Positions 2,906 to 29,503 of a DNA stretch of 64,000 nucleotides are shown here, piece by piece; within the stretch, counting starts at the first letter, position 1, and each line of letters opens with the position of its first letter. The stretch lies in NCBI GenBank assembly GCA_025041175.1, contig JAKCFJ010000006.1, positions 124,001 through 188,000 on the forward strand. The letters run 5' to 3'. The DNA is from Halobacteriales archaeon YIM A00010 (GTDB lineage Archaea; Halobacteriota; Halobacteria; Halobacteriales; Haloarculaceae). Made by a program: the position numbers and the translations under genes. The notes below the pieces were generated by a model. It was given only the letters and a program-made list of their open reading frames with translations, was not told where the DNA came from and searched no databases.

Positions 2906-3286
2906 TCACTCATGGTCATTCAGGAATTCGAGGATAACCTCCCCGTGACAGACGCACGGCACTCCCTCGACCTCGGTTTTTGGCTCCTCCACACAGTAAC
3001 ACCCAATAATCAGCCTCGGCAGCTCCTCTAATGCGACTTTTCTCAAATCCGCATTCTCCTCAGAATACCAATAGTCCTTGAACTCCTTCACGCTCTCCTC
3101 GCGGGTATAGTTCCCGCCATCCTTCTTGAGCTTGAACGGGGAGCCATACTTTGACGAGCGACCAATTCGTTTGTCGGGCGTCGGATGATCATCCTTCGTG
3201 ACGTTCACTAACGTCGTGGGCGTTACACTTCCGTCCAATCGCATCTGTCGAGTTACCATGTCGGATCGACCGCTGTTGTCGTTCAT
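2906..3286 (-). CDS. DUF4326 family protein, 126 aa
   Basis: The family pattern is clear: an N-terminal strand with VNVTKDDHP, the RIGRSSKYGSPFKL segment and a C-terminal CYCVEEP...CVCHGEVILE cysteine/histidine cluster. DUF4326 proteins are small, common in phages and plasmids, and of unknown biochemistry. I chose ATG at 3286 rather than the in-frame GTG at 3304 because a GGAGGT Shine-Dalgarno sequence lies seven bases before it. It is the last gene of a minus-strand group beginning at 3992 and driven by palindrome module M1. Confidence 0.8.
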   Translation of the reverse strand: MNDNSGRSDMVTRQMRLDGSVTPTTLVNVTKDDHPTPDKRIGRSSKYGSPFKLKKDGGNYTREESVKEFKDYWYSEENADLRKVALEELPRLIIGCYCVEEPKTEVEGVPCVCHGEVILEFLNDHE

Positions 3287-3307
3287 GCCGAACCTCCTGT
3301 CCACTTG

Positions 3308-3556
3308 CTAAGGGTGTGCTGGTTCTCGGGGAACTCCACAGCGTACTGCATTTTCTCGTCTCTTCTGCCTACGGAATGTCCGCATGAATGAACGTGCTCG
3401 TTCGGTGTTCGAGGGATTACCATCGCCTTGAACGTATTCTCCATGACGTTCTGCGATTCTTCCCCGTAAATACCCAGTCCACCGGATTTTAATCGGGTCA
3501 TCAAGGGGAGTTTGATCGAAATTTTCCGTTCGCCGGTCGTTGTGCTCCTCAGCCAT
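3308..3556 (-). CDS. Hypothetical protein, 82 aa
   Basis: Small unrecognised, strongly charged protein (MAEEHNDRRTENFDQTPLDD start, arginine-rich C-terminus). The ATG at 3556 overlaps the end of the upstream gene by eight bases, the usual translational coupling in this region, and the stop lies 21 bases before the DUF4326 start. No domain is recognised. A longer start at 3586 is possible but would overlap the upstream gene deeply. Confidence 0.5.
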   Translation of the reverse strand: MAEEHNDRRTENFDQTPLDDPIKIRWTGYLRGRIAERHGEYVQGDGNPSNTERARSFMRTFRRQKRRENAVRCGVPREPAHP

Positions 3557-3992
3557 CGAAACCACCACGCCGAAGCCGAATAGCATCGCGTTTCTCGCGG
3601 ACGCTCCCGGACAGTCGTGTCATGACCGCTTGCAGTCCCGTCCGGGCCTCAAGCTCGCCAAACACCGCCTGGGAATGGAGGTACGCTACTGATCCCGGAC
3701 GCGAGTGGAGAGTATCAGAGTAGCGATTGACCGCTTTCATTTCGATCACGTCCGTCTGGTCAGTGTAGCTCCCACTCGATGCGTGCCGTCCCGTGACGAT
3801 AAACCACCCCTCTGGATCACCCTCGCCCGTGTACTGCACCACGTCACCCTCTGAGAGGTTGTCCAAGTTGTCGATTCCGACATCGTATCTCTCAACATTT
3901 CCATCAAGATCCTCGATCCCGTCGATCTCCGGATAGTCGGTTATGTAACGAATCTCCTCCTCCACAGCCTCGGTGTCTGCTTCTTGGGCCAT
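3549..3992 (-). CDS. Hypothetical protein, 147 aa, first gene under module M1
   Basis: An acidic N-terminus (MAQEADTEAVEEEI) is followed by a beta-rich stretch (LSEGDVVQYTGEGDPEGWFIVTG) suggesting a small barrel, then an arginine-rich C-terminus. No family is recognised. The start at 3992 is supported because its first ten codons and about 45 bases of upstream DNA are duplicated, inverted, at 6631-6689. It heads a three-gene unit (this gene, the 82-aa protein, DUF4326). Transcription probably starts in palindrome module M1, 32 bases upstream. Confidence 0.65.
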   Translation of the reverse strand: MAQEADTEAVEEEIRYITDYPEIDGIEDLDGNVERYDVGIDNLDNLSEGDVVQYTGEGDPEGWFIVTGRHASSGSYTDQTDVIEMKAVNRYSDTLHSRPGSVAYLHSQAVFGELEARTGLQAVMTRLSGSVREKRDAIRLRRGGFDG

Positions 3993-4023
3993 ATTTCTAC
4001 TATAGCACCCATCACCATAAAAA

Positions 4024-4079
4024 TATGCACTAATGCATAGGCTGCATCTATGCATAGTTTTAATATGCACTAGTGCATA
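4024..4079. promoter_or_regulatory. Palindromic divergent promoter module M1
   Basis: Three dyads in 56 bases: TATGCACTAATGCATA (4024-4039), CTATGCATAG (4048-4057) and the perfect palindrome TATGCACTAGTGCATA (4064-4079), with short TTTTAA spacers. It lies between divergent genes at 3992 (minus) and 4170 (plus). Related modules sit at 6571, 8261 and 9667. A dimeric repressor or activator binding TATGCA-n4-TGCATA is inferred; no regulator gene has been identified. Confidence 0.8.
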
Positions 4080-4082
4080 GGT

Positions 4083-4169
4083 ATGGCTGGGAAGCTTGGT
4101 GCCACGGAAGAAGGTGGCCGCGTGTTGCAACCACGCGACCTCGGGCTTCTCATGTGAGGCAAGAAACCC
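4083..4169 (+). promoter_or_regulatory. Two-hairpin 5' leader with a 24-codon upstream frame
   Basis: Hairpin 1: CGCGTG (4119-4124), loop TTGCAAC, CACGCG (4132-4137). Hairpin 2: GGG-c-TTCT (4143-4150) with AGAA-a-CCC (4162-4169), whose loop holds GTGAGG, a plausible ribosome-binding site just before the ATG at 4170. An upstream frame MAGKLGATEEGGRVLQPRDL plus GLLM runs from 4083 to a stop at 4157. The same arrangement recurs at 9580-9663, and the hairpin part also at 6479-6533. Confidence 0.6.
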
Positions 4170-4490
4170 ATGTCGAGCAAATCAACGACTGAAGTTAAAG
4201 GGAAGGGATCGGATGAACGAATCGTAATCGAAGACAACGGCCAGTGGGGATGGAGTCTGGCCGTGGAAGGGAATATTATCACCGCAAGTAAACTCATCCC
4301 CCACGACGGAACGCTGCTGTACAGCACTAAAACGACCGAGCATAGTCGTAGCTCCCGCCGGCGTGGGAGCCAATTCCAACTGTCAGTCGAGCAGGTTGTC
4401 GGTCGATACTGCCAACATTCTCAGACGGAGCGATCTACACAAGAACTCCTCGCACACGTGCGAGAGGCGCGTGAAAAAGGTCAGCAGTAG
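4170..4490 (+). CDS. Hypothetical protein, 106 aa, behind the M1 leader
   Basis: Unrecognised small protein. Residues 15-50 look beta-rich (RIVIEDNGQWGWSLAVEG, a pattern seen in small haloarchaeal proteins), and the C-terminus is helical and charged. The ATG at 4170 follows the SD-bearing hairpin of the leader directly. It is the only plus-strand gene of module M1 and is followed by 190 bases without a gene before the convergent DpdA-like gene. Confidence 0.55.
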   Translation: MSSKSTTEVKGKGSDERIVIEDNGQWGWSLAVEGNIITASKLIPHDGTLLYSTKTTEHSRSSRRRGSQFQLSVEQVVGRYCQHSQTERSTQELLAHVREAREKGQQ

Positions 4491-4681
4491 GCACGCTACC
4501 CAGCACATTTCCCTACCTTCTACCGATGATTCTATTATCAAGTAACAGTATTCCGGTTTCTATGGATTTATCACCAGCCGAGTGTTACACTCAATCGGAC
4601 ATACCTGCGTGCCTGCGGGATGACCTTGGTCGGCAGCCGGGGGCGATTCACCATTAACCACGGAGCCGACTTTTGATAAGA

Positions 4682-5353
4682 CTAGCACCATGCAGAGAGG
4701 TCCATCTGTCGAGCATCAGCTGGCTCTGGCTCTGTGCTGGTCTCTTCGGTTGCCTGTTCGAGCTGGTCGAGATAGTGCCAGTAGCCGTTTTGGAAGATCG
4801 TCGTTGTGTCTGTGGAATCGAAGCCGGTTCGATAGGCCCATACGAGACCATCCTCTCCCCCCGGATTTCCGATGTGAGTGCGGAGATCTTGATCTCGCGC
4901 TCGGTGCACGATCTCCGCACCGTTGGCCCGCTTCCAGCGTTTAGGCCCGCCGACGAACACGCCCTGACACCCTTCAATGGCGGCAAACTGCTCCTCGACA
5001 GGCAATCCCTGTTGAAGAACCCAATAGCGCATACACTGTCCGCTTCCTACTGGAAGCTTACGCTCGTAGAGCCATTCTCGGTGACGCTCGACGGTCGCCT
5101 CAGCATCTCCGTAGACATCGGGCAACACGAAGAAGTCTGGGGACATCGGCATTTCTGTGAGTGACCTGTCGATGGCCTCATAGTAAGCGTCAGCATCGAA
5201 ATCGCCAGTATACGCGCCGTTATCCAGGAAATAGGGTCCATCGTGGGGTGTCATCTTCTGGGGTGTCCATCCAAAGCCATGGCTGTGTGACGGTGCGTGT
5301 TGCCGTGCTTTTCGGAGATTGTTGGGACTTGCCCCCGTATAGTAAAGATGCAT
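4682..5353 (-). CDS. TGT/DpdA-like deazaguanine transglycosylase homologue, 223 aa
   Basis: The motif order fits the tRNA-guanine transglycosylase superfamily, DpdA branch: YFLDNGAYTG (residues about 42-51, aligned with the nucleophile-bearing DSGGFQ of TGT), SPDFFVLPDVYGDAEATV, a WVLQQGLP strand, VFVGGPKRWKR and HIGNPGG. DpdA enzymes put 7-deazaguanines into DNA, and phage and plasmid versions protect DNA from restriction. At 223 residues it is a compact version without an added PUA domain. No preQ0 synthesis gene is in the window, so the base would have to come from the host archaeosine pathway. ATG 5353 was chosen because MHLYYTGA begins the fold. It is probably the last gene of the module M2 operon. 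Confidence 0.65.
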   Translation of the reverse strand: MHLYYTGASPNNLRKARQHAPSHSHGFGWTPQKMTPHDGPYFLDNGAYTGDFDADAYYEAIDRSLTEMPMSPDFFVLPDVYGDAEATVERHREWLYERKLPVGSGQCMRYWVLQQGLPVEEQFAAIEGCQGVFVGGPKRWKRANGAEIVHRARDQDLRTHIGNPGGEDGLVWAYRTGFDSTDTTTIFQNGYWHYLDQLEQATEETSTEPEPADARQMDLSAWC

Positions 5354-5369
5354 GATTGAAGAAAAAAGA

Positions 5370-5486
5370 TCAGCTACTGACGATCCACACCGTCTCGCAC
5401 TCGCCACACTCGCCTGTTGTGGGGCCGTCTAACCGCCCTCCGACGAAGATATTCTGCGAGTTGCAGTTACGATTAGGGCAGTTCAT
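5370..5486 (-). CDS. Tiny zinc-ribbon protein, 38 aa
   Basis: The frame reads MNCPNRNCNSQNIFVGGRLD then GPTTGECGECETVWIVSS and stops. Two cysteine knuckles (CPNRNC and CGEC) make a minimal zinc ribbon. The ATG overlaps the 3' end of the preceding gene by 14 bases, and the stop is 16 bases before the DpdA-like start, so it fits the operon. Its role is unknown; the position next to a nucleic-acid-modifying enzyme is suggestive only. Confidence 0.6.
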   Translation of the reverse strand: MNCPNRNCNSQNIFVGGRLDGPTTGECGECETVWIVSS

Positions 5487-5832
5487 GGATGAGCGTCCCC
5501 TCCTTTTTCGTGAATACACCGCAGTTTGTGCATCTCACAATCAGGGTGTCCTTATCGTCTGCGTCGTCCTCGTTCTCCTCGTGTTCGACAACCACTGCTG
5601 TTTCCTTGCAGTTCCAGCAGGGAGCCCTGACCAAAGGCTGGCCGCTCACCTCGACATATCCAATGTGACGGCCACAGGTCCCACAGCTGACCCGTTCGTG
5701 CTCGTGATCGGTCTCGCAGTTGGGATCGTCACAACAATAACCCGGAGCGGGATGTCGCTCGATCTGATCCTCATCCATCTGATTGAGGAGAATATTCGGC
5801 CGATTCTCATCGGCCGTATGGGTTCGCCCCAT
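5473..5832 (-). CDS. Cysteine-rich zinc-binding protein, 119 aa
   Basis: Contains CCDDPNCETDHEHE, then SCGTCG, CWNC and CTNCG pairs, enough for two zinc ribbons, with an acidic linker (HEENEDDADDKD). The ATG at 5832 shares its A with the TGA stop of the upstream gene, which fixes the start. No catalytic motif is present. It belongs to the M2 operon upstream of the 38-aa zinc ribbon and the DpdA-like enzyme. Confidence 0.65.
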   Translation of the reverse strand: MGRTHTADENRPNILLNQMDEDQIERHPAPGYCCDDPNCETDHEHERVSCGTCGRHIGYVEVSGQPLVRAPCWNCKETAVVVEHEENEDDADDKDTLIVRCTNCGVFTKKEGTLIHELP

Positions 5833-6107
5833 CAATCGCTCACCTCCCCTGAGACAGAGACAGAGTGACCGCACGCAGGGCAGTCCACCTCCTCGATGAG
5901 ACCGTAGTCCTCACTAGAATCGTGAATCACGTCGTAGAACGTCGCCTGCGGAATCCACGCCCGCATTGCTGTGTCGATATCAGAGACCTCGACACAAACC
6001 ACAGTCCGTCCGAACATCCGCTTCTCGACATCGAGATCGTCAATCTTCCAGATCCTCGACTGACCGTCCGACCCCGAAAACAGCCGATCGGATGCGATCT
6101 CACTCAT
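5832..6107 (-). CDS. Hypothetical protein with C-terminal CPxC knuckle, 91 aa
   Basis: Unrecognised. A mixed alpha/beta N-terminal part is followed near the end by DCPACGHSVSVSGE, half of a zinc site. It overlaps the preceding gene (stop near 6104) by four bases and is coupled to the following gene through TGATG. Codon use is ordinary for the region. Confidence 0.6.
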   Translation of the reverse strand: MSEIASDRLFSGSDGQSRIWKIDDLDVEKRMFGRTVVCVEVSDIDTAMRAWIPQATFYDVIHDSSEDYGLIEEVDCPACGHSVSVSGEVSD

Positions 6108-6481
6108 CGGTCGCCCTCCGGTGAGAACTCACCCTCGAATTGAGAGTATTCGATGCCACGTACGATCACTCCCTGCGTATCTTCTTCGATGGTGTCACAT
6201 TCGAATTCAGTCGGGGTGATCATCCACTCGAATAGCTCCTCACATCCGACGCCTATGATCCTGAGCGTGTTGCGTTGGCGGGGGAGACATTTCGCATCCG
6301 AAAAGAACGCCTCAACCCGGAGCGAAAGCGCCTTCGCTGGATCATCATTAACTACTGCTTCCAACGCCACGCGTTGCCAAAACTCGTCATCAGGCATTGC
6401 CTCGATATCGCACACGTGCTCGTGCTCGCTCTCACCGTTCGATGCTTCACTTTTTTCAATCGTCGAGTTTGATTCCGCCAT
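6104..6481 (-). CDS. Hypothetical acidic protein, 125 aa, first gene of the M2 operon
   Basis: A polar N-terminus with a HEHVCDIEAMPDDEFW stretch leads into a predicted alpha/beta body. No family is recognised. The start at 6481 directly follows a leader hairpin identical over 55 bases to the one before the gene at 4170, although these two proteins are unrelated. The operon continues through four more genes to 4682. Confidence 0.6.
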   Translation of the reverse strand: MAESNSTIEKSEASNGESEHEHVCDIEAMPDDEFWQRVALEAVVNDDPAKALSLRVEAFFSDAKCLPRQRNTLRIIGVGCEELFEWMITPTEFECDTIEEDTQGVIVRGIEYSQFEGEFSPEGDR

Positions 6482-6533
6482 GGGTTTCTTGCCTCACATG
6501 AGAAGCCCGAGGTCGCGTGGTTGCAACACGCGG
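6479..6533 (-). repeat. Leader hairpin copy, 55 bases identical and inverted to 4118-4172
   Basis: Read on the minus strand it contains the same two hairpins (CGCGTG/CACGCG with loop TTGCAAC, then GGG-c-TTCT/AGAA-a-CCC) and ends in the ATG of the gene at 6481. The small upstream frame seen at 4083 is interrupted here by a TGA, so the RNA structure, not the peptide, is what has been preserved in this copy. Confidence 0.7.
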
Positions 6534-6570
6534 TCACTTTCTCAGTGATCTCGCGCTTCCTAGCTACACC

Positions 6571-6626
6571 TATGCACTAATGCATCATAAAACTATGCAT
6601 AGGTGCAGCCTATGTAATAGTGCATA
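6571..6626. promoter_or_regulatory. Palindromic divergent promoter module M2
   Basis: TATGCACTAATGCATC (6571-6586), CTATGCATAG (6593-6602) and TATGTAATAGTGCATA (6611-6626). It is the reverse complement of M1 in order and spacing. It separates the operon starting at 6481 (minus) from a duplicated gene start at 6659 (plus). Confidence 0.75.
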
Positions 6627-6658
6627 GGTTATATGGTGATGGGTGCTATAGTAGAAAT

Positions 6659-6709
6659 ATGGCCCAAGAAGCAGACACCGAGGCTGTGAAGGTGGAAAGT
6701 GATGAGTGA
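6659..6709 (+). pseudogene. Duplicated first codons of the gene at 3992
   Basis: Reads MAQEADTEAVKVESDE and stops. The first ten codons and about 45 upstream bases equal the start of the minus-strand gene at 3992, after which the sequence diverges. This is a copied promoter-plus-start cassette; its stop overlaps a new ATG at 6702, so it may now act as a leader peptide for downstream reading. Confidence 0.6.
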
Positions 6710-8254: not shown

Positions 8255-8260
8255 GGATCA

Positions 8261-8347
8261 ATCTATGCATTGGTGCATCATAAAAACTATGCATAGATGC
8301 AGCCTATGCAATAGTGCATAGTTTTTATGATGCACCAATGCATAGAT
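8261..8347. promoter_or_regulatory. Palindromic divergent promoter module M3 with 33-bp perfect inverted repeat
   Basis: Arms 8261-8293 and 8315-8347 are perfect 33-bp reverse complements. They contain TATGCATTGGTGCATC, CTATGCATAG, TATGCAATAGTGCATA and ATGCACCAATGCATA dyads, four sites rather than three. The block lies between the minus-strand gene at 8254 and the plus-strand protease gene at 8362. As single-stranded DNA or RNA it could fold into one long hairpin. Confidence 0.85.
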
Positions 8348-8361
8348 AAGGGTGTAATACG

Positions 8362-9009
8362 ATGATGAGACAGATGCAGCTCGATGATTATGCGACCTCC
8401 ACTTGTTCATCGAGAGAGAAGCAGGGACATCAAGGCCCACCTCGGGTTGACGATCCGACTGAAGAACACAAACAGCAGTTGATCGAGCAGGCCCAAGTCC
8501 ACGCTCGAACGGTCGATTTAGATATCGACGTCGACGTGATCGAATGGGAGGTTTCAACGAATGCTCAACGAACACGTCGAGCGGGAGATTGTCGATATAA
8601 ACCCCAGACGGACCAGCTCACGATCACGCTGACGTGGGCGGCCTACGTCGCGTGGGGGTGGGAAAAATTTTCAGCGGTAGTTCGTCACGAGCTCGCCCAT
8701 GCCTACCAGTACAGTAAAACCGGTCAAAGCGGACATGGGTGGGCATTCAAGCGCCTAGCCCAACAGGTAGATACACACATCAGGTGTGAGCTATTCACGA
8801 CTGGGCGGTTGTTAGTCTATTGTGATGAAGGATGTGAAGACCACCGGAACAAGGCGAGCAAGCTAGTGAAACATCCAGAAACGGCGTATTGCCGGACACA
8901 CGATGCCTCGTTTACGATCGAACACGTGGCGACAGGTCGGACGTGGACGGATTACGACGGCTATAAACAGCAACGAGAAGCGATCGAACGCTCGGATACC
9001 GGGTGGTAA
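8362..9009 (+). CDS. SprT-like zinc metalloprotease, 215 aa
   Basis: Zinc site HELAHAYQYSK near residue 115 (HExxH) with the downstream GHGWAFKRLA segment that supplies the third ligand in SprT/Spartan proteins. The C-terminal part carries CDEGCEDHR and CRTHD cysteines, as in the SprT zinc ribbon. SprT-family proteases act on DNA-bound proteins in eukaryotes; archaeal roles are untested. The first 35 residues are low-complexity and may start instead at a second ATG. It is the right-hand gene of module M3. Confidence 0.85.
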   Translation: MMRQMQLDDYATSTCSSREKQGHQGPPRVDDPTEEHKQQLIEQAQVHARTVDLDIDVDVIEWEVSTNAQRTRRAGDCRYKPQTDQLTITLTWAAYVAWGWEKFSAVVRHELAHAYQYSKTGQSGHGWAFKRLAQQVDTHIRCELFTTGRLLVYCDEGCEDHRNKASKLVKHPETAYCRTHDASFTIEHVATGRTWTDYDGYKQQREAIERSDTGW

Positions 9010-9189
9010 CTCACCTCTTGGCTATTAAAGCGAAAACCACCATTGGTGAAGTGAGATATCCTCTCTGCGTTACGAGTGGTTAGTGCAGAACAATATAGTT
9101 CGACAGCTGATTTACCTCACTCTTCAAGATATTCGGAGAGTCACCGGTGTACCCCCGTGCGTCCGGACGTTTGTCGCCATACAGTCAGC

Positions 9190-9579
9190 TCATCGAACGT
9201 TGTCGCGTTGACGCACCCGGACAGGGAAATACCGGTCCGACTGGCCCATCACAGATGTGATCGTCACCTGCCGGACAGGAATGTTCAATAGCATACTTGA
9301 CAATCCGTGATACAAACGGTGTGTGTCGTAGTTCATCGTGTAGATCGCCACTATTGCGGCTTTGACGAGATGTTTGCAGATTTTGCCTCGGAAATGGAAA
9401 TCCGGACCATCACACGCGCCGACATCAAGGTTGACGGTGTACTGTTCCGTACCTTCAACCATCACCTCAACGGAGTTGATAACCGAAACCGCCATATCCT
9501 CGTTGCACGCCCGAACAAAGCGGTCGTGATCAATCGGTCGGTCACAATTGTTTTCAACCGAGGGTGTCGTTGTACTCAT
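9190..9579 (-). CDS. SWIM-type zinc-finger protein with an altered ligand, 129 aa
   Basis: The central segment YTVNLDVGACDGPDFHFRGK followed by ICKHLVKA matches the SWIM pattern CxCx(n)CxH, except that the second cysteine is glycine (CDG instead of CDC). SWIM modules bind DNA or protein partners. The first half is an unrecognised helical region. ATG 9579 follows directly on the SD-bearing leader hairpin. Reading on the other strand (9307-9699) is a shadow. Confidence 0.65.
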   Translation of the reverse strand: MSTTTPSVENNCDRPIDHDRFVRACNEDMAVSVINSVEVMVEGTEQYTVNLDVGACDGPDFHFRGKICKHLVKAAIVAIYTMNYDTHRLYHGLSSMLLNIPVRQVTITSVMGQSDRYFPVRVRQRDNVR

Positions 9580-9663
9580 TGGCTTCTAATCACCTTTGAG
9601 AAGCCCGGTTGGGCGCTGCAACGCCCGGCCACATTTCCTGTGACCTCCGTCCTTCTCAGCCAT
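9580..9663 (-). promoter_or_regulatory. Two-hairpin leader with 25-codon upstream frame (second full copy)
   Basis: Upstream frame MAEKDGGHRKCGRALQRPTG plus LLKGD from 9663 to a stop at 9586. Hairpin 1 is GGGCG-TTGCAG-CGCCC (9611-9626), and hairpin 2 is GGCTTCT/AGAAGCC (9581-9605) with GGTGATT in its loop. Compared with 4119-4169 the stems differ in sequence but keep pairing, and the TTGCA loop is kept. Confidence 0.6.
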
Positions 9664-9666
9664 ATC

Positions 9667-9745
9667 TATGCACTAGTGCATAATAAACTCATGTACTAAT
9701 GCATAGGCTGCATCTATGCATAGTTTTAATATGCGCCAGTGCATA
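9667..9745. promoter_or_regulatory. Palindromic divergent promoter module M4
   Basis: TATGCACTAGTGCATA (9667-9682), CATGTACTAATGCATA (9690-9705), CTATGCATAG (9714-9723) and TATGCGCCAGTGCATA (9730-9745). It drives the SWIM gene to the left; to the right only a duplicated gene start remains. Confidence 0.75.
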
Positions 9746-9754
9746 GATTGATCC

Positions 9755-9829
9755 ATGATAGGACAGAACACCACCACAATGGGGCATACCGCTACAACGT
9801 CCTTTCGATCAAGGAATACGACAAGATAG
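9755..9829 (+). pseudogene. Duplicated first codons of the gene at 8254
   Basis: MIGQNTTTMGHTATTSFRSR plus NTTR and a stop. The first eight residues repeat the start of the protein at 8254 and then diverge. It is a second case of a copied promoter-plus-start cassette in this region. Confidence 0.55.
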
Positions 9830-12628: not shown

Positions 12629-15600
12629 CTATCGAAGAACGTAGTCCGTTGAGCCTCCTTTCTCCGTTGATTGCTGTTCTTGTTCACTCTCTTCATTGGG
12701 AGACGAGTCAGCGGCATCATGTTCCTGCTGCTCGCTGGTTGCATTGGGTTGTTCGTCGCTAGTGGTGTCCTCAGTACACTCTGGATCGCTAGCGCTGGTA
12801 TTAGGGATGAGCGGACGTATCTCTCCCTTTTCGTAGATCTGTGGACTATCGAACTCGTCGTTGTTGTCGTCAGGGAATACGACGAACATGAAATCGTCCT
12901 CGGTTGGCCGCCGTGTCTCGCCCGACGCATCAACGAATTCGCGCTCGGGAATGAACGGTGGGCGGATCGGCTTCCAATCCTGTTTCAGCTCACCCTTCGT
13001 CTGGTAGGTCCTCTGTTCGCCGTCGACGTGAACTTCGTATCCATCGGCGGTACGCTCGTAGTATGCCGGGAATGCCTCACCATCAGCGGTAAAGACAGCC
13101 TCGTAGTCCTCGAACCGTGCGCGAACAGTTCCTTGCCCGCCTTTATCCTCCAAGACGATTTCGCCACTATCACGTTCTCGCCATTGGAGACTCTTCGTGG
13201 TTTTCGGACGGAGCACTCCGACACCCGGCTCGAGCTTCATCTCCTTGCTCAGATTGTAGAAGATCCGATCCCCGACGTTCCCCTCCTCATCGACGGAGGC
13301 CTCGCTCACGAACGTGAGTGTCCCATAGTCCGTGTTGATGTCCGTGCTTCGCCCTTCTGTGTGGTAGATGACCCGCTCTCCACGGCGCGCCCAGTACTCG
13401 AAGAGACTGTTATGACTCGGGATAGCGTCGGGATCGTCGAAGTCCTCGGGGTTGTAGCTCCCATCCTTGCAGGCGAAGACGCATTTTTTGCCCTGTTCAA
13501 CGGCTTTCCGGAGATTCGTTAGGGTTTGTTTCGGCTTCTGGAGCGTGGTGGTCTCCGCCTCGATCGCTATGTCCTTGCCGTCCGAAATCTCGTAGAGACG
13601 GCTATACTCAGTTTCACATTTCTCTTTTAATCGCTGGTACTCTGCATCGCTAGTCGCCTCTGCAAGTGGGTTGATCGGCAAATCCGCTACCCCATCGGGC
13701 AACTCCTCGCCCTCTTGTGATGGAAGCGACGCATCTGCGCCCAATACGAGAAACGTCTTCAACGATTCGCGTAGGATGTACCGATGGGCAGGTCCGCCTG
13801 CATTCTCGGCGCTGCCGGTGTCCTGTTGGAATAGTTTGTTTCGTCCAGCAGCGGTGAGAGAGACTTTCTCGGTTCCTTCACGGCGTGGCTCGACGTATTC
13901 GCCGTACATCTGTTCAATCTGATTCGAGAATTTTGCGTCCGACAATTCGATATCAGTCCGCGTCTCGAACTCTTCATGCACCCGATCGACCGTGACCAGC
14001 CTGGTGCCATCGTTGTCGTCGCTCGCTCGCACAGAACACACGAACAGCGCCTCTAGGATAGAGTCGGCCAAGAGCTGGTCAGTGTCTCCTATGTCGATGT
14101 CGACCGCACCAGATCGTTCAAGCGCCCCTTCACCGTCTCGAATCAGCACTGCATCACGGATTTCTTCGGCAGTTTGGGTCGGAACGCCATGCTCTCGAAG
14201 TTTCTCCTCAATCAGTTCATCACGCTCGGCGCGCGTTAGTAACGGAGGATACTCGGGAAGCGAGTACATCCGGAATGGTTCTGAGGCCTGCTGCTGATCG
14301 GGGAGATCGAGCGTCATCCACGCGTGGAATGGGACATCGCGTTTCAGTGTCTCTGGGTCCATCCCGATATTCTTCGCCACAAGCCGCGAGTCTTTGGGCG
14401 AGCCCGGCGAGAAACTGACCCACGTGTCGCAGTTGGCCGCAAGGGCAGGCAAAACGCTCTGAATTTGATTGGGATACTGGCAGGACAAAAACAGCGAGAG
14501 ACGGTATTTACGACTCTCTGAAAGCATCTGATCGATTGCTCCATCTTGGGTCGCAAGGTTATCGAACTCGTCGGCAATGAGATAAAACGGCGACCGTTCG
14601 CTGCGGTCCAGCTCGGCCCGCGCACGGATGACCGACCAGATCCGTCGAAAGACGGCAGTCCCGATCATCTGCTTCAAGTCACGGTCCTCACGCCCCATTC
14701 GGACAATAATCAGTTTATTGTTCTCCACCGCCTCCACGAGGTCAATTGGGGAATTCCGCAAGGACATGAATTGCCGAGCAACAGGCGATTCCACCCAATC
14801 CTTGAATCGTCGCCAGAGGGGTTCGAGTGCGTTCGAGTCCTGTTCAGCGACGTCTGCGATTTTGTCAGCTGAATCAGCCAGCAGGTTGAGGCCCGCTGCT
14901 CGCACCGTCTCGGCAAACCGGCGAGCATTTTCTGGGGACTCAACGATGTAGAAGAGATCGGCGGGGGTGAACTCGTATTTGCTCTGTGCCGATGCACGGA
15001 CAAGTGAGGCAGTCACACCGTCCATCCGTGGCCCCCAACCTTGCGAGGCTCCGAGCATATGCCGAAAGTCAGCAACCAATGACTCAACGGCCTGATCGAA
15101 TTGAGGAGAATCAGGTGATATCGACGGATTCAGGAAGTTGAATCCAGAGACGCGCCCTCGTGTGCTCCCCGGTTCGATCCACACAACATCGTCCCGTCGT
15201 CGCTCCGGCAAGATTTCAAGGAGTTCTTCGGAGTCGTCACCGCCGGGATCGATGAAACACCCGCCTGCATCCAGCTCAGCGATTTGGCGGAAGACGTTCT
15301 TCAGGAAAGTCGATTTGCCATATCCCGTTGTTCCGAAACAGGCAACATGGCGGAACATCGAACGCTGGTCGATCTTAACATCCCGTCCACGACGGGTTCC
15401 GATCCCGAGCCAGATAGGTGCATCGTCGTCCCAGCAGCCATGTTCCATCATTTTTCGTGCGCGCTCGGCGGCAAACACTACATCACGGTCAGCATCGTCA
15501 GGCAGATCAGAATCGGTGTCAATGCCATGTGCCTTGACTGGCGCTCCCTGGACCCGGTCAACGTTGTCAATACGGTAGCGGAAGGGCCACGATTCGTTGT

Positions 15601-28174: not shown

Positions 28175-29503
28175 TCACAGCACTATAATCAAAACAATCA
28201 TGACAACGACCATACTTCCAGCAATCAACGGCTTGTTTTCGATTACTTTCTGGTATAGCGGGAATTGCTCATACTCCTTGCGGAATGTATCGCGGTTTTC
28301 CTCGTCGTAGAAGTAGCGCTTTCGCAGCGCAAAGCGCTCTGTCACCGCGCAATCGGTACAAACTGGTTCACCTTCAACACGTTCGGTCCGTGTATGTCGC
28401 CAACAGTTGATGCTACCACAGTTCTCGCAGTACGTCAGCGGTGTCCACGACCATCCACAGTGGACACACTGTGCGATTCCATTATCGACGATATGTCGAT
28501 CAGGCCCAGCCGCATCGTATTTCAACGTATAAACGTGCTCGTTCAGCCGGGTCTCCGAACGAACCCGCGGAACGTACATCGGCGTGAGATCGGTGATTGA
28601 GATATCCGAATCGGATGGCACACACTCTTTTTCGTAGTCAACGTTGTTGTCGCCGGTATATTCGACCGTTATCGTATATTTTTCCTGGAGACGTTCAACA
28701 ACCCATTCTTCGAAGTCACTTTCAGCATGTCGAAATCGCGTAACAGTGGTGTCGACGAACGTCTCCGTTTTCTCCCGGTCGGCAATCTCAACTGTCCGGT
28801 GCGCTCCGTCAGAGAGAAGCTGTCCCAGCGAGTTATCGAGAGGCTGTGGAGGTGTGTGATCGCCGTGGAGCTGGAGGATATCACGCTCGTTCACGCGGTG
28901 GATGACCCCAACGGAGGTTTCGAACTGTGCGTCTGTCCGAGCCTCGATCGACACCACGGGACGAAATTGAACTGTCGATTCGATCTGGCTGAGATCGTCT
29001 ATATCGATGTTCGAAATGGCTTCAAACTGCTCGGTAACCGGCGTTGCGACATTCCCTGGGGGGAGCGTTTGGTCACAGATGAGCTCGACCTTCCCATTTC
29101 GAAGATCCAGTCCAGCCTCATCAGCAATGTTTCGAAGGGTGTTTCCATCAACCAGTTCGATCTCCAATCCATCACCGTTTTCTTGGACCTTCTCAACGTA
29201 CTCTTGGGCCTGTGCTGTGAACGTTCCTGTTGTGACGACCATTCCCCGGGTAGGACCTGTATTCTCATATGTAATCACAGCAGAATGTAATTTTTGGACG
29301 ATCTCTCGACCGACCTGATCCATATGTTTGCACTCAACAACGATGTCGTGACGATATCCATTAATGGACTCGGACATCAAAATATCGCGGCCTTCATCAC
29401 CTGTTTTCGGTGTCTGTTGAACGTTCTCGTATCCATAATTTCGGAAGACATCGACCATGAGAGCTTCGAACTGAAGCCCTGATAGGTCATCAAGGATAGT
29501 CAT
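28175..29503 (-). CDS. Mrr-type restriction endonuclease with zinc ribbons and C-terminal membrane anchor, 442 aa
   Basis: The N-terminal Mrr_cat domain is clear: LSGLQFEALMVDVFRNYGYE, then GDEGRDILM and VVECKHM (the D ... ExK active site). The middle 200 residues are unassigned. Two zinc ribbons follow (CVHCGWSW ... CENCGS; CWRHTRTER ... CTDC), and the protein ends in a transmembrane helix (LIAGSMVVVMIVLIIVL). Mrr enzymes cut modified DNA; the anchor suggests action at the membrane, for example on incoming DNA. It is single-gene, convergent to the transfer arm. Confidence 0.8.
   Translation of the reverse strand: MTILDDLSGLQFEALMVDVFRNYGYENVQQTPKTGDEGRDILMSESINGYRHDIVVECKHMDQVGREIVQKLHSAVITYENTGPTRGMVVTTGTFTAQAQEYVEKVQENGDGLEIELVDGNTLRNIADEAGLDLRNGKVELICDQTLPPGNVATPVTEQFEAISNIDIDDLSQIESTVQFRPVVSIEARTDAQFETSVGVIHRVNERDILQLHGDHTPPQPLDNSLGQLLSDGAHRTVEIADREKTETFVDTTVTRFRHAESDFEEWVVERLQEKYTITVEYTGDNNVDYEKECVPSDSDISITDLTPMYVPRVRSETRLNEHVYTLKYDAAGPDRHIVDNGIAQCVHCGWSWTPLTYCENCGSINCWRHTRTERVEGEPVCTDCAVTERFALRKRYFYDEENRDTFRKEYEQFPLYQKVIENKPLIAGSMVVVMIVLIIVL

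Follow-up and report, generated by a model that had tools for sequence, protein, structure and literature searches.

The window, the whole 64,000-nucleotide stretch of DNA under analysis, lies on contig C6 (219,325 bases) in a haloarchaeal genome of 5.97 Mb. Five genes lie close together on its minus strand, in the order 125-aa protein, 91-aa protein, 119-aa double zinc-ribbon protein, 38-aa zinc-ribbon protein and, last, a 223-aa protein that we call mini-DpdA. Adjacent reading frames in this series overlap by 1 to 14 nt, and a 16-nt gap lies directly 5′ of mini-dpdA, a spacing that leads us to expect a single operon. The mini-dpdA reading frame, which is present as a single copy in the genome, contains the sequences DNGAYTG, LPDVYGDAEATV and VGGPKRWKR. 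A preliminary description of this DNA had pointed to these motifs and to the five-gene operon, and every element that it named is present at the positions it gave, on the minus strand. The features of the locus and the evidence for each are as follows.

3955–4175 (+): inverted repeat, left arm, carrying a bidirectional promoter/leader region and situated past the 3′ end of the operon (88–96% complementary blocks)
4484–4626 (−): block 3′ of dpdA that matches DNA following the other DpdA-type gene, on contig C5 (94% and 82% identity)
4682–5353 (−): mini-DpdA, 223 aa, predicted TGT fold, putative DNA 7-deazaguanine transglycosylase (ORF, AF2 model, PDB matches, PHROG 15826)
4688–4708 (−): PCNA-interacting-type peptide QMDLSAW, residues 216–222, in the disordered tail of mini-DpdA (motif test, tail of the genome's own FEN1, pLDDT <50)
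5370–5486 (−): single zinc-ribbon protein, 38 aa, CPNRNC...CGEC (ORF)
5473–5832 (−): double zinc-ribbon protein, 119 aa, four cysteine pairs forming two ribbons (ORF)
5832–6107 (−): 91-aa protein with a C-terminal CPACGH, a half ribbon (ORF)
6104–6481 (−): 125-aa protein, encoded by the first operon gene (ORF)
6476–6696 (−): inverted repeat, right arm, presumed promoter/leader of the dpdA operon (88–96% complementary blocks with the left arm)

TraG/HerA-like ATPases, an Orc1/Cdc6 protein and a ParA-family ATPase are also encoded in the window, and from this gene content its replicon looks like a plasmid or an integrated element. The two inverted repeats, each of ~220 bp, flank both the dpdA operon and a convergent 106-aa ORF. 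Each arm resembles a bidirectional promoter, and recombination between the two arms could invert the cassette. Palindromic ATGCAT/TATGCATAG-type elements are repeated in several promoter regions (4020–4095, 6555–6640, 8260–8347 and about 9600–9760), which suggests a common operator; within the genome, all matches to the repeat elements are on contig C6. A test of the RNA strand for a stable hairpin downstream of dpdA gave no support for one (z −0.46).

Two other genes of the window deserve mention. An Mrr-type restriction endonuclease domain, possibly modification-dependent, is encoded at 28178–29503 (−). A DUF4326 protein is encoded at 2909–3304 (−), and its homologue on the Halopiger plasmid pHALXA03 lies close to dpdA; these two proteins share an N-terminal Q(A/M)xLxG(D/S)V-like motif with a DUF6884 protein.

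A compact member of the TGT superfamily

The AF2 model of mini-DpdA (mean pLDDT 90.3, pTM 0.87) predicts with high confidence an eight-stranded TIM barrel, whose strands span residues 2–6, 24–30, 41–43, 74–76, 108–113, 131–134, 158–162 and 180–183. Foldseek ranks tRNA-guanine transglycosylase (TGT) on top for this model, and the best 50 rows of a VIA-align comparison with the PDB are all tRNA-guanine transglycosylases (Z 14.4–14.8, ~197 residues). Ten residues are invariant in an alignment of 42 sequences (D44, N45, G46, P78, D79, Q114, G135, G136, H160 and D182), and in the model they sit in or just after barrel strands 3 to 8. Specifically, strands 3, 4, 5, 6 and 8, or the positions directly past them, hold D44, D79, Q114, G135-G136 and D182, respectively. 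The catalytic and base-binding residues of Z. mobilis TGT are D102, D156, Q203, G229/G230 and D280, and we infer that the mini-DpdA set corresponds to these, a mapping made by strand order rather than by superposition. The preliminary description had named the TIM barrel and the catalytic aspartates as a check on its assignment, and both are present in the model and the alignment. The zinc-binding subdomain (Cys/His cluster) of canonical tRNA TGT is absent from the 223 aa; our claim is membership of the TGT superfamily, and not identity as a canonical tRNA TGT.

A profile comparison with DpdA, also suggested in the preliminary description, gives a clear match. When aligned by hhalign to nine phage DpdA proteins including that of phage 9g, the mini-DpdA profile scores a probability of 95.9 and an E value of 5.5e-9 over 144 columns. 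The alignment pairs DNGAY with DSGAF, PDVYGD with LDVIGD, GG with GG, and H160 with H196 of 9g DpdA, a histidine that is missing from DpdA2 (Hutinet et al., PMC6884629). In PHROGs, the protein matches phrog_15826 (E=1.4e-18), a family whose function is unannotated, and related phage genes carry the annotation ‘DpdA-like tRNA-guanine transglycosylase’. Pfam, NCBIfam and PADLOC gave no match for the 223-aa protein, a search of PDB chains with the single sequence returned nothing useful, and the profile comparison with the archaeosine TGT (arcTGT) of the same genome is not significant (prob 1.7, from a shallow alignment). The DNA-guanine transglycosylase 7UI4 reached only E=0.95 in a profile search of PDB chains and for this reason is not used as evidence. 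The earlier placement in the TGT/DpdA superfamily is nevertheless borne out by the fold, the profile–profile match, the catalytic residues and the preQ0-gene context in phages described below, and a TGT-like enzyme class is almost certain.

Close homologues (66–80% identity) reside on several haloarchaeal plasmids and contigs, with plasmid-borne relatives in Natrinema, Halopiger, Natronorubrum and Halorubrum, and matches occur in 23 of the 391 sampled genomes of the class. Distant homologues occur in many phages; in a scan of viral contigs, relatives were recovered with an alignment as the query and none with a single sequence. This occurrence in plasmids, genomes and phages argues that the 223-aa reading frame is not open by chance.

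The C-terminal tail and the replication clamp

The terminal 14 residues of mini-DpdA, which end in QMDLSAWC, are disordered in the AF2 model (pLDDT <50). The PCNA-interacting consensus in haloarchaea is QxxLxxFx (PMC7776575), and QMDLSAWC fits a consensus of this type with W at the aromatic position. The pattern Q..[LIVM]..[FW], which was spotted by eye prior to testing, falls within the final 20 residues of 17 of the 21 haloarchaeal members, compared with 0.1 in shuffled tails; the sequences are related, and thus 17/21 overstates their independence. By comparison, such an ending is found in 11 of the 466 ORFs of the same haloarchaeal loci and, among 42 genes checked in the window, in dpdA only.

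Similar tails are present on other proteins of related elements. For example, a 240-aa partner encoded upstream of dpdA in related plasmids carries one in 10 of 10 rows, some of which represent the same plasmid twice. Four HRTV-29-type DpdAs on plasmids end in a PIP-like motif (one with F for the central L), whereas the viral copy lacks it. Among bacterial-phage members, 8 of 37 have clamp-like endings against roughly one expected when the hexapeptide form is added, but this pattern was picked after viewing the tails, which makes the phage part weak; the bacterial clamp pentapeptides alone are not clearly above chance. In 9g and MS1, the phage dpdA also adjoins the gene for the clamp; in MMDA13 the two are one gene apart.

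On the strength of these sequence patterns, the mini-DpdA tail likely binds PCNA. Tethering of the enzyme to the clamp seems fairly probable and, given that the tail matches a clamp-docking tag, the enzyme probably marks plasmid DNA during copying. Alternatively, the Q..L..W ending could be a relic specific to this lineage and no clamp ligand, as the close relationship of the haloarchaeal members and the lack of the motif in 4 of the 21 might indicate. We consider a relic unlikely, because, in an alignment of nine members, Q216 is the sole invariant residue over the final 18 positions while the linker varies, and because the same type of tail is found on unrelated proteins of the same operons and on the distant HRTV-29-type DpdAs. 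Furthermore, FEN1 of the same genome ends in QTGLDDWM, the same pattern as in mini-DpdA. A broader proposal, that mobile elements tether their DNA deazaguanine writers to the clamp, draws on the PCNA tails of two distant DpdA types and an operon partner in haloarchaeal plasmids and on the bacterial-clamp-like tails in some phages; to this we would give about an even chance.

The genome encodes a second DpdA type. On contig C5 (L178, positions 8778–9677) lies the gene for a 299-aa DpdA-type protein homologous to HRTV-29 DpdA. The DNA 3′ of this gene matches the DNA 3′ of the window dpdA in segments of 94% and 82% identity, and a short out-of-frame ORF just past its stop ends in ...HQTTLSAWC*, which is nearly the tail of the window protein. 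The matching downstream DNA and the near-identical tail point to a probable swap of DpdA types between the two replicons at a single site, with the tail end retained. Elsewhere on contig C5 (L178, positions 3235–4041), a 268-aa protein with no family match includes a LIPLINGCSPEEW...FTGG stretch that is vaguely TGT-like.

Partner genes, substrate and precursor supply

The preliminary description had singled out the zinc ribbons as part of a combination not recognised from described dpd clusters, and the operon could be read as a new and coherent deazaguanine system whose ribbons bring the enzyme to specific DNA sites. The genes form a tight operon with overlapping reading frames, and four other plasmid loci have a different zinc-ribbon family next to dpdA, with PIP tails in two of the four. 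However, the four operon partners (38, 119, 91 and 125 aa) have no homologues in the other loci of the mini-DpdA family, and the three larger ones have none in the plasmid collection PLSDB. Moreover, the first two operon genes are duplicated on contig C5 at 12.9 kb (~87% DNA identity), where the ribbon genes and mini-dpdA are absent; the copy of the 125-aa protein (12894–13259) is ~77% identical and that of the 91-aa protein lacks the ribbon tail. Zinc-ribbon genes are also not significantly enriched beside dpdA (6/61 versus 16/286, p=0.17). A ribbon-guided system is thus improbable, the idea that the ribbons are a defining part of the system is unsupported, and a partnership between them and mini-DpdA is improbable as well. 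We suggest, with low confidence, that these proteins are accessory DNA-binding or regulatory factors. The 38-aa protein has no match in Pfam or NCBIfam and one chance-level match in PHROGs, whereas the zinc-ribbon matches of the 119-aa protein in Pfam and NCBIfam are weak and every one is below the cut-off. We also discount a hit of the 119-aa protein to Lar restriction alleviation, which at E=0.042 falls below the cut-off and is likely due to chance.

A different type of gene recurs in related loci. In six haloarchaeal plasmid loci, a DUF6884 (YaaA-like) gene adjoins dpdA or lies close to it; in the window, the surroundings of dpdA yielded neither DUF6884 nor the 240-aa partner. The only DUF6884 match in the present genome (contig C4) is below the cut-off, has an internal stop and was rejected. 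DUF6884 is a distant YaaA relative according to Pfam (PMC11701544), and the YaaA family PF03883 includes DpdC from the bacterial Dpd system (PMC12839542); by this analogy, DUF6884 may convert the inserted base. The genes around dpdA, with the remainder of the window partly scanned, gave no match to DpdB, DpdC or restriction genes. Genes of the PAPS-reductase family are repeatedly found close to DpdA-like genes, both on haloarchaeal plasmids and in the phages ReqiPine5 and R6L (loci L044, L040, L182, L038 and L037), and a functional link between the two is possible.

To our knowledge, no member of the small mini-DpdA family has been assayed. Of 80 viral loci with a family member, 30 (10 of 37 clusters) have a queC, queD or queE gene that overlaps or abuts it. 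This adjacency, the strongest indication that the family works with 7-deazaguanines, makes a substrate of this kind likely. We regard 7-deazaguanine use as highly probable and DNA as the probable substrate.

At the mini-dpdA locus, the examined stretch has no recognisable Que gene. The genome encodes QueC (E 2.8e-72) and an archaeosine TGT, and thus preQ0 is probably supplied by the host, which renders plausible the dependence on host precursors put forward in the preliminary description. Host-derived preQ0 has been proposed for the DpdA-only virus HRTV-29 (PMC8651126), and DpdA-only elements that lack preQ0 genes have already been described (PMC6884629, PMC8651126). Two observations count against a role in DNA modification: mycobacteriophages with mini-DpdA have a host that lacks preQ0 genes, and the DpdA-only phage Orion had no modification (PMC6884629).

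A TGT-fold enzyme could also act on RNA, either tRNA or another transcript, for example by boosting or altering tRNA archaeosine during plasmid carriage. The closest solved structures are tRNA enzymes, neither the fold nor the active site tells DNA and RNA apart as substrates, and preQ0 for tRNA is already made by the host. Yet the C-terminal region of arcTGT is absent (223 aa versus ~490 in the TGT of this genome), the His aligned to H196 of 9g DpdA is present, the gene resides on mobile elements, at times adjoining DNA methyltransferases, and the PCNA-type tail suggests DNA, all of which make an RNA substrate very unlikely. Just as unlikely is a DNA base exchange that is reversed or uses another base, in which a counter-defence eraser removes 7-deazaguanine or inserts a different purine: TGT chemistry is an exchange that is possible with different bases, phage Sonali has a mini-DpdA alongside a full DpdA, and DpdA-only phages in precursor-less hosts exist (PMC6884629), but the direct adjacency of queC/D/E in viral loci is a better fit to a writer. 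In Arthrobacter phage Sonali, the mini-DpdA is gene 81 and the full DpdA is encoded with a preQ0 operon (genes 87–91), so the mini and full forms may differ in function.

Proposed mechanism and comparison with known systems

The best explanation, to which we assign a probability of roughly 65%, is that mini-DpdA is a minimal transglycosylase that places 7-deazaguanine in DNA, takes its preQ0 from the host and is tethered to PCNA, the replication clamp. In the mechanism we infer, DNA is the substrate rather than tRNA, and the single TIM barrel would form a covalent intermediate via Asp182, with Asp44 serving as the acid/base, to swap guanine for 7-deazaguanine. The donor would most likely be preQ0 from the host archaeosine pathway. 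The flexible QMDLSAWC tail would dock on PCNA, and we propose that the enzyme thereby acts on newly replicated plasmid DNA. Plasmid modified in this manner would resist restriction.

DpdA enzymes modify up to a third of guanines. If the proposal is correct, clamp-tethered writers would couple base replacement to DNA replication, and tethering would explain both the choice of DNA and the dense modification by a transglycosylase related to tRNA enzymes. The 223-aa enzyme with its PCNA-consensus peptide offers a directly testable answer to how relatives of tRNA enzymes choose DNA, in an archaeal host that has its own preQ0-pathway genes. Candidate DNA 7-deazaguanine modification now extends to haloarchaeal plasmids, and DUF6884/YaaA-like proteins become linked to it. 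DpdA itself is already known; what is new is the variant architecture and its setting, with a DpdA-like mechanism. Beyond the preliminary description, the analysis adds the PCNA-type tail, a DUF6884/YaaA-like partner at related loci and, on another contig of the genome, a second gene of the DpdA type.

Among known systems, arcTGT shares with mini-DpdA the fold, the pattern of catalytic residues and probably preQ0 as the base donor, but it is about 490 aa long, carries tRNA-recognition domains and serves tRNA. Bacterial Dpd systems (the dpd cluster of S. Montevideo; DpdA, 7UI4) pair a TGT homologue with DpdC, which parallels the pairing of mini-DpdA with DUF6884 in related plasmids. In contrast to these systems, no DpdB, restriction or preQ0 genes were seen at the window locus, and mini-DpdA is about half the size of bacterial DpdA (436 aa in the 7UI4 chain). 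The DpdA of phage 9g and its relatives (Hutinet 2019) are TGT-like proteins with DSGAF, LDxIGD, GG, H196 and DSS motifs in the same order. These enzymes insert 7-deazaguanine in place of G in DNA and are often encoded with preQ0 genes; at about 300–380 aa they are larger than the 223-aa mini-DpdA, to which they are linked by profile comparison only.

HRTV-29 DpdA resembles mini-DpdA in being haloarchaeal and in the absence of preQ0 genes, and in that virus ‘YaaA’ is directly upstream of DpdA (PMC8651126). However, it represents a separate TGT-like branch (profile match prob 36, E 3.8e-4), and the viral protein has no PIP tail, whereas its plasmid relatives have one. Closest are the ‘DpdA-like’ proteins of actinophages in PHROG 15826 (GreaseLightnin, Ksquared, Sonali gene 81 and Aoka), which belong to the same family and have the same motifs and size (about 205–215 aa); Sonali gene 81 matches the window protein at 4.1e-90. 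The actinophage members are 28–29% identical to the window member, which differs from them in being archaeal and plasmid-borne, in carrying a PCNA-type tail and in having a host with preQ0-pathway genes.
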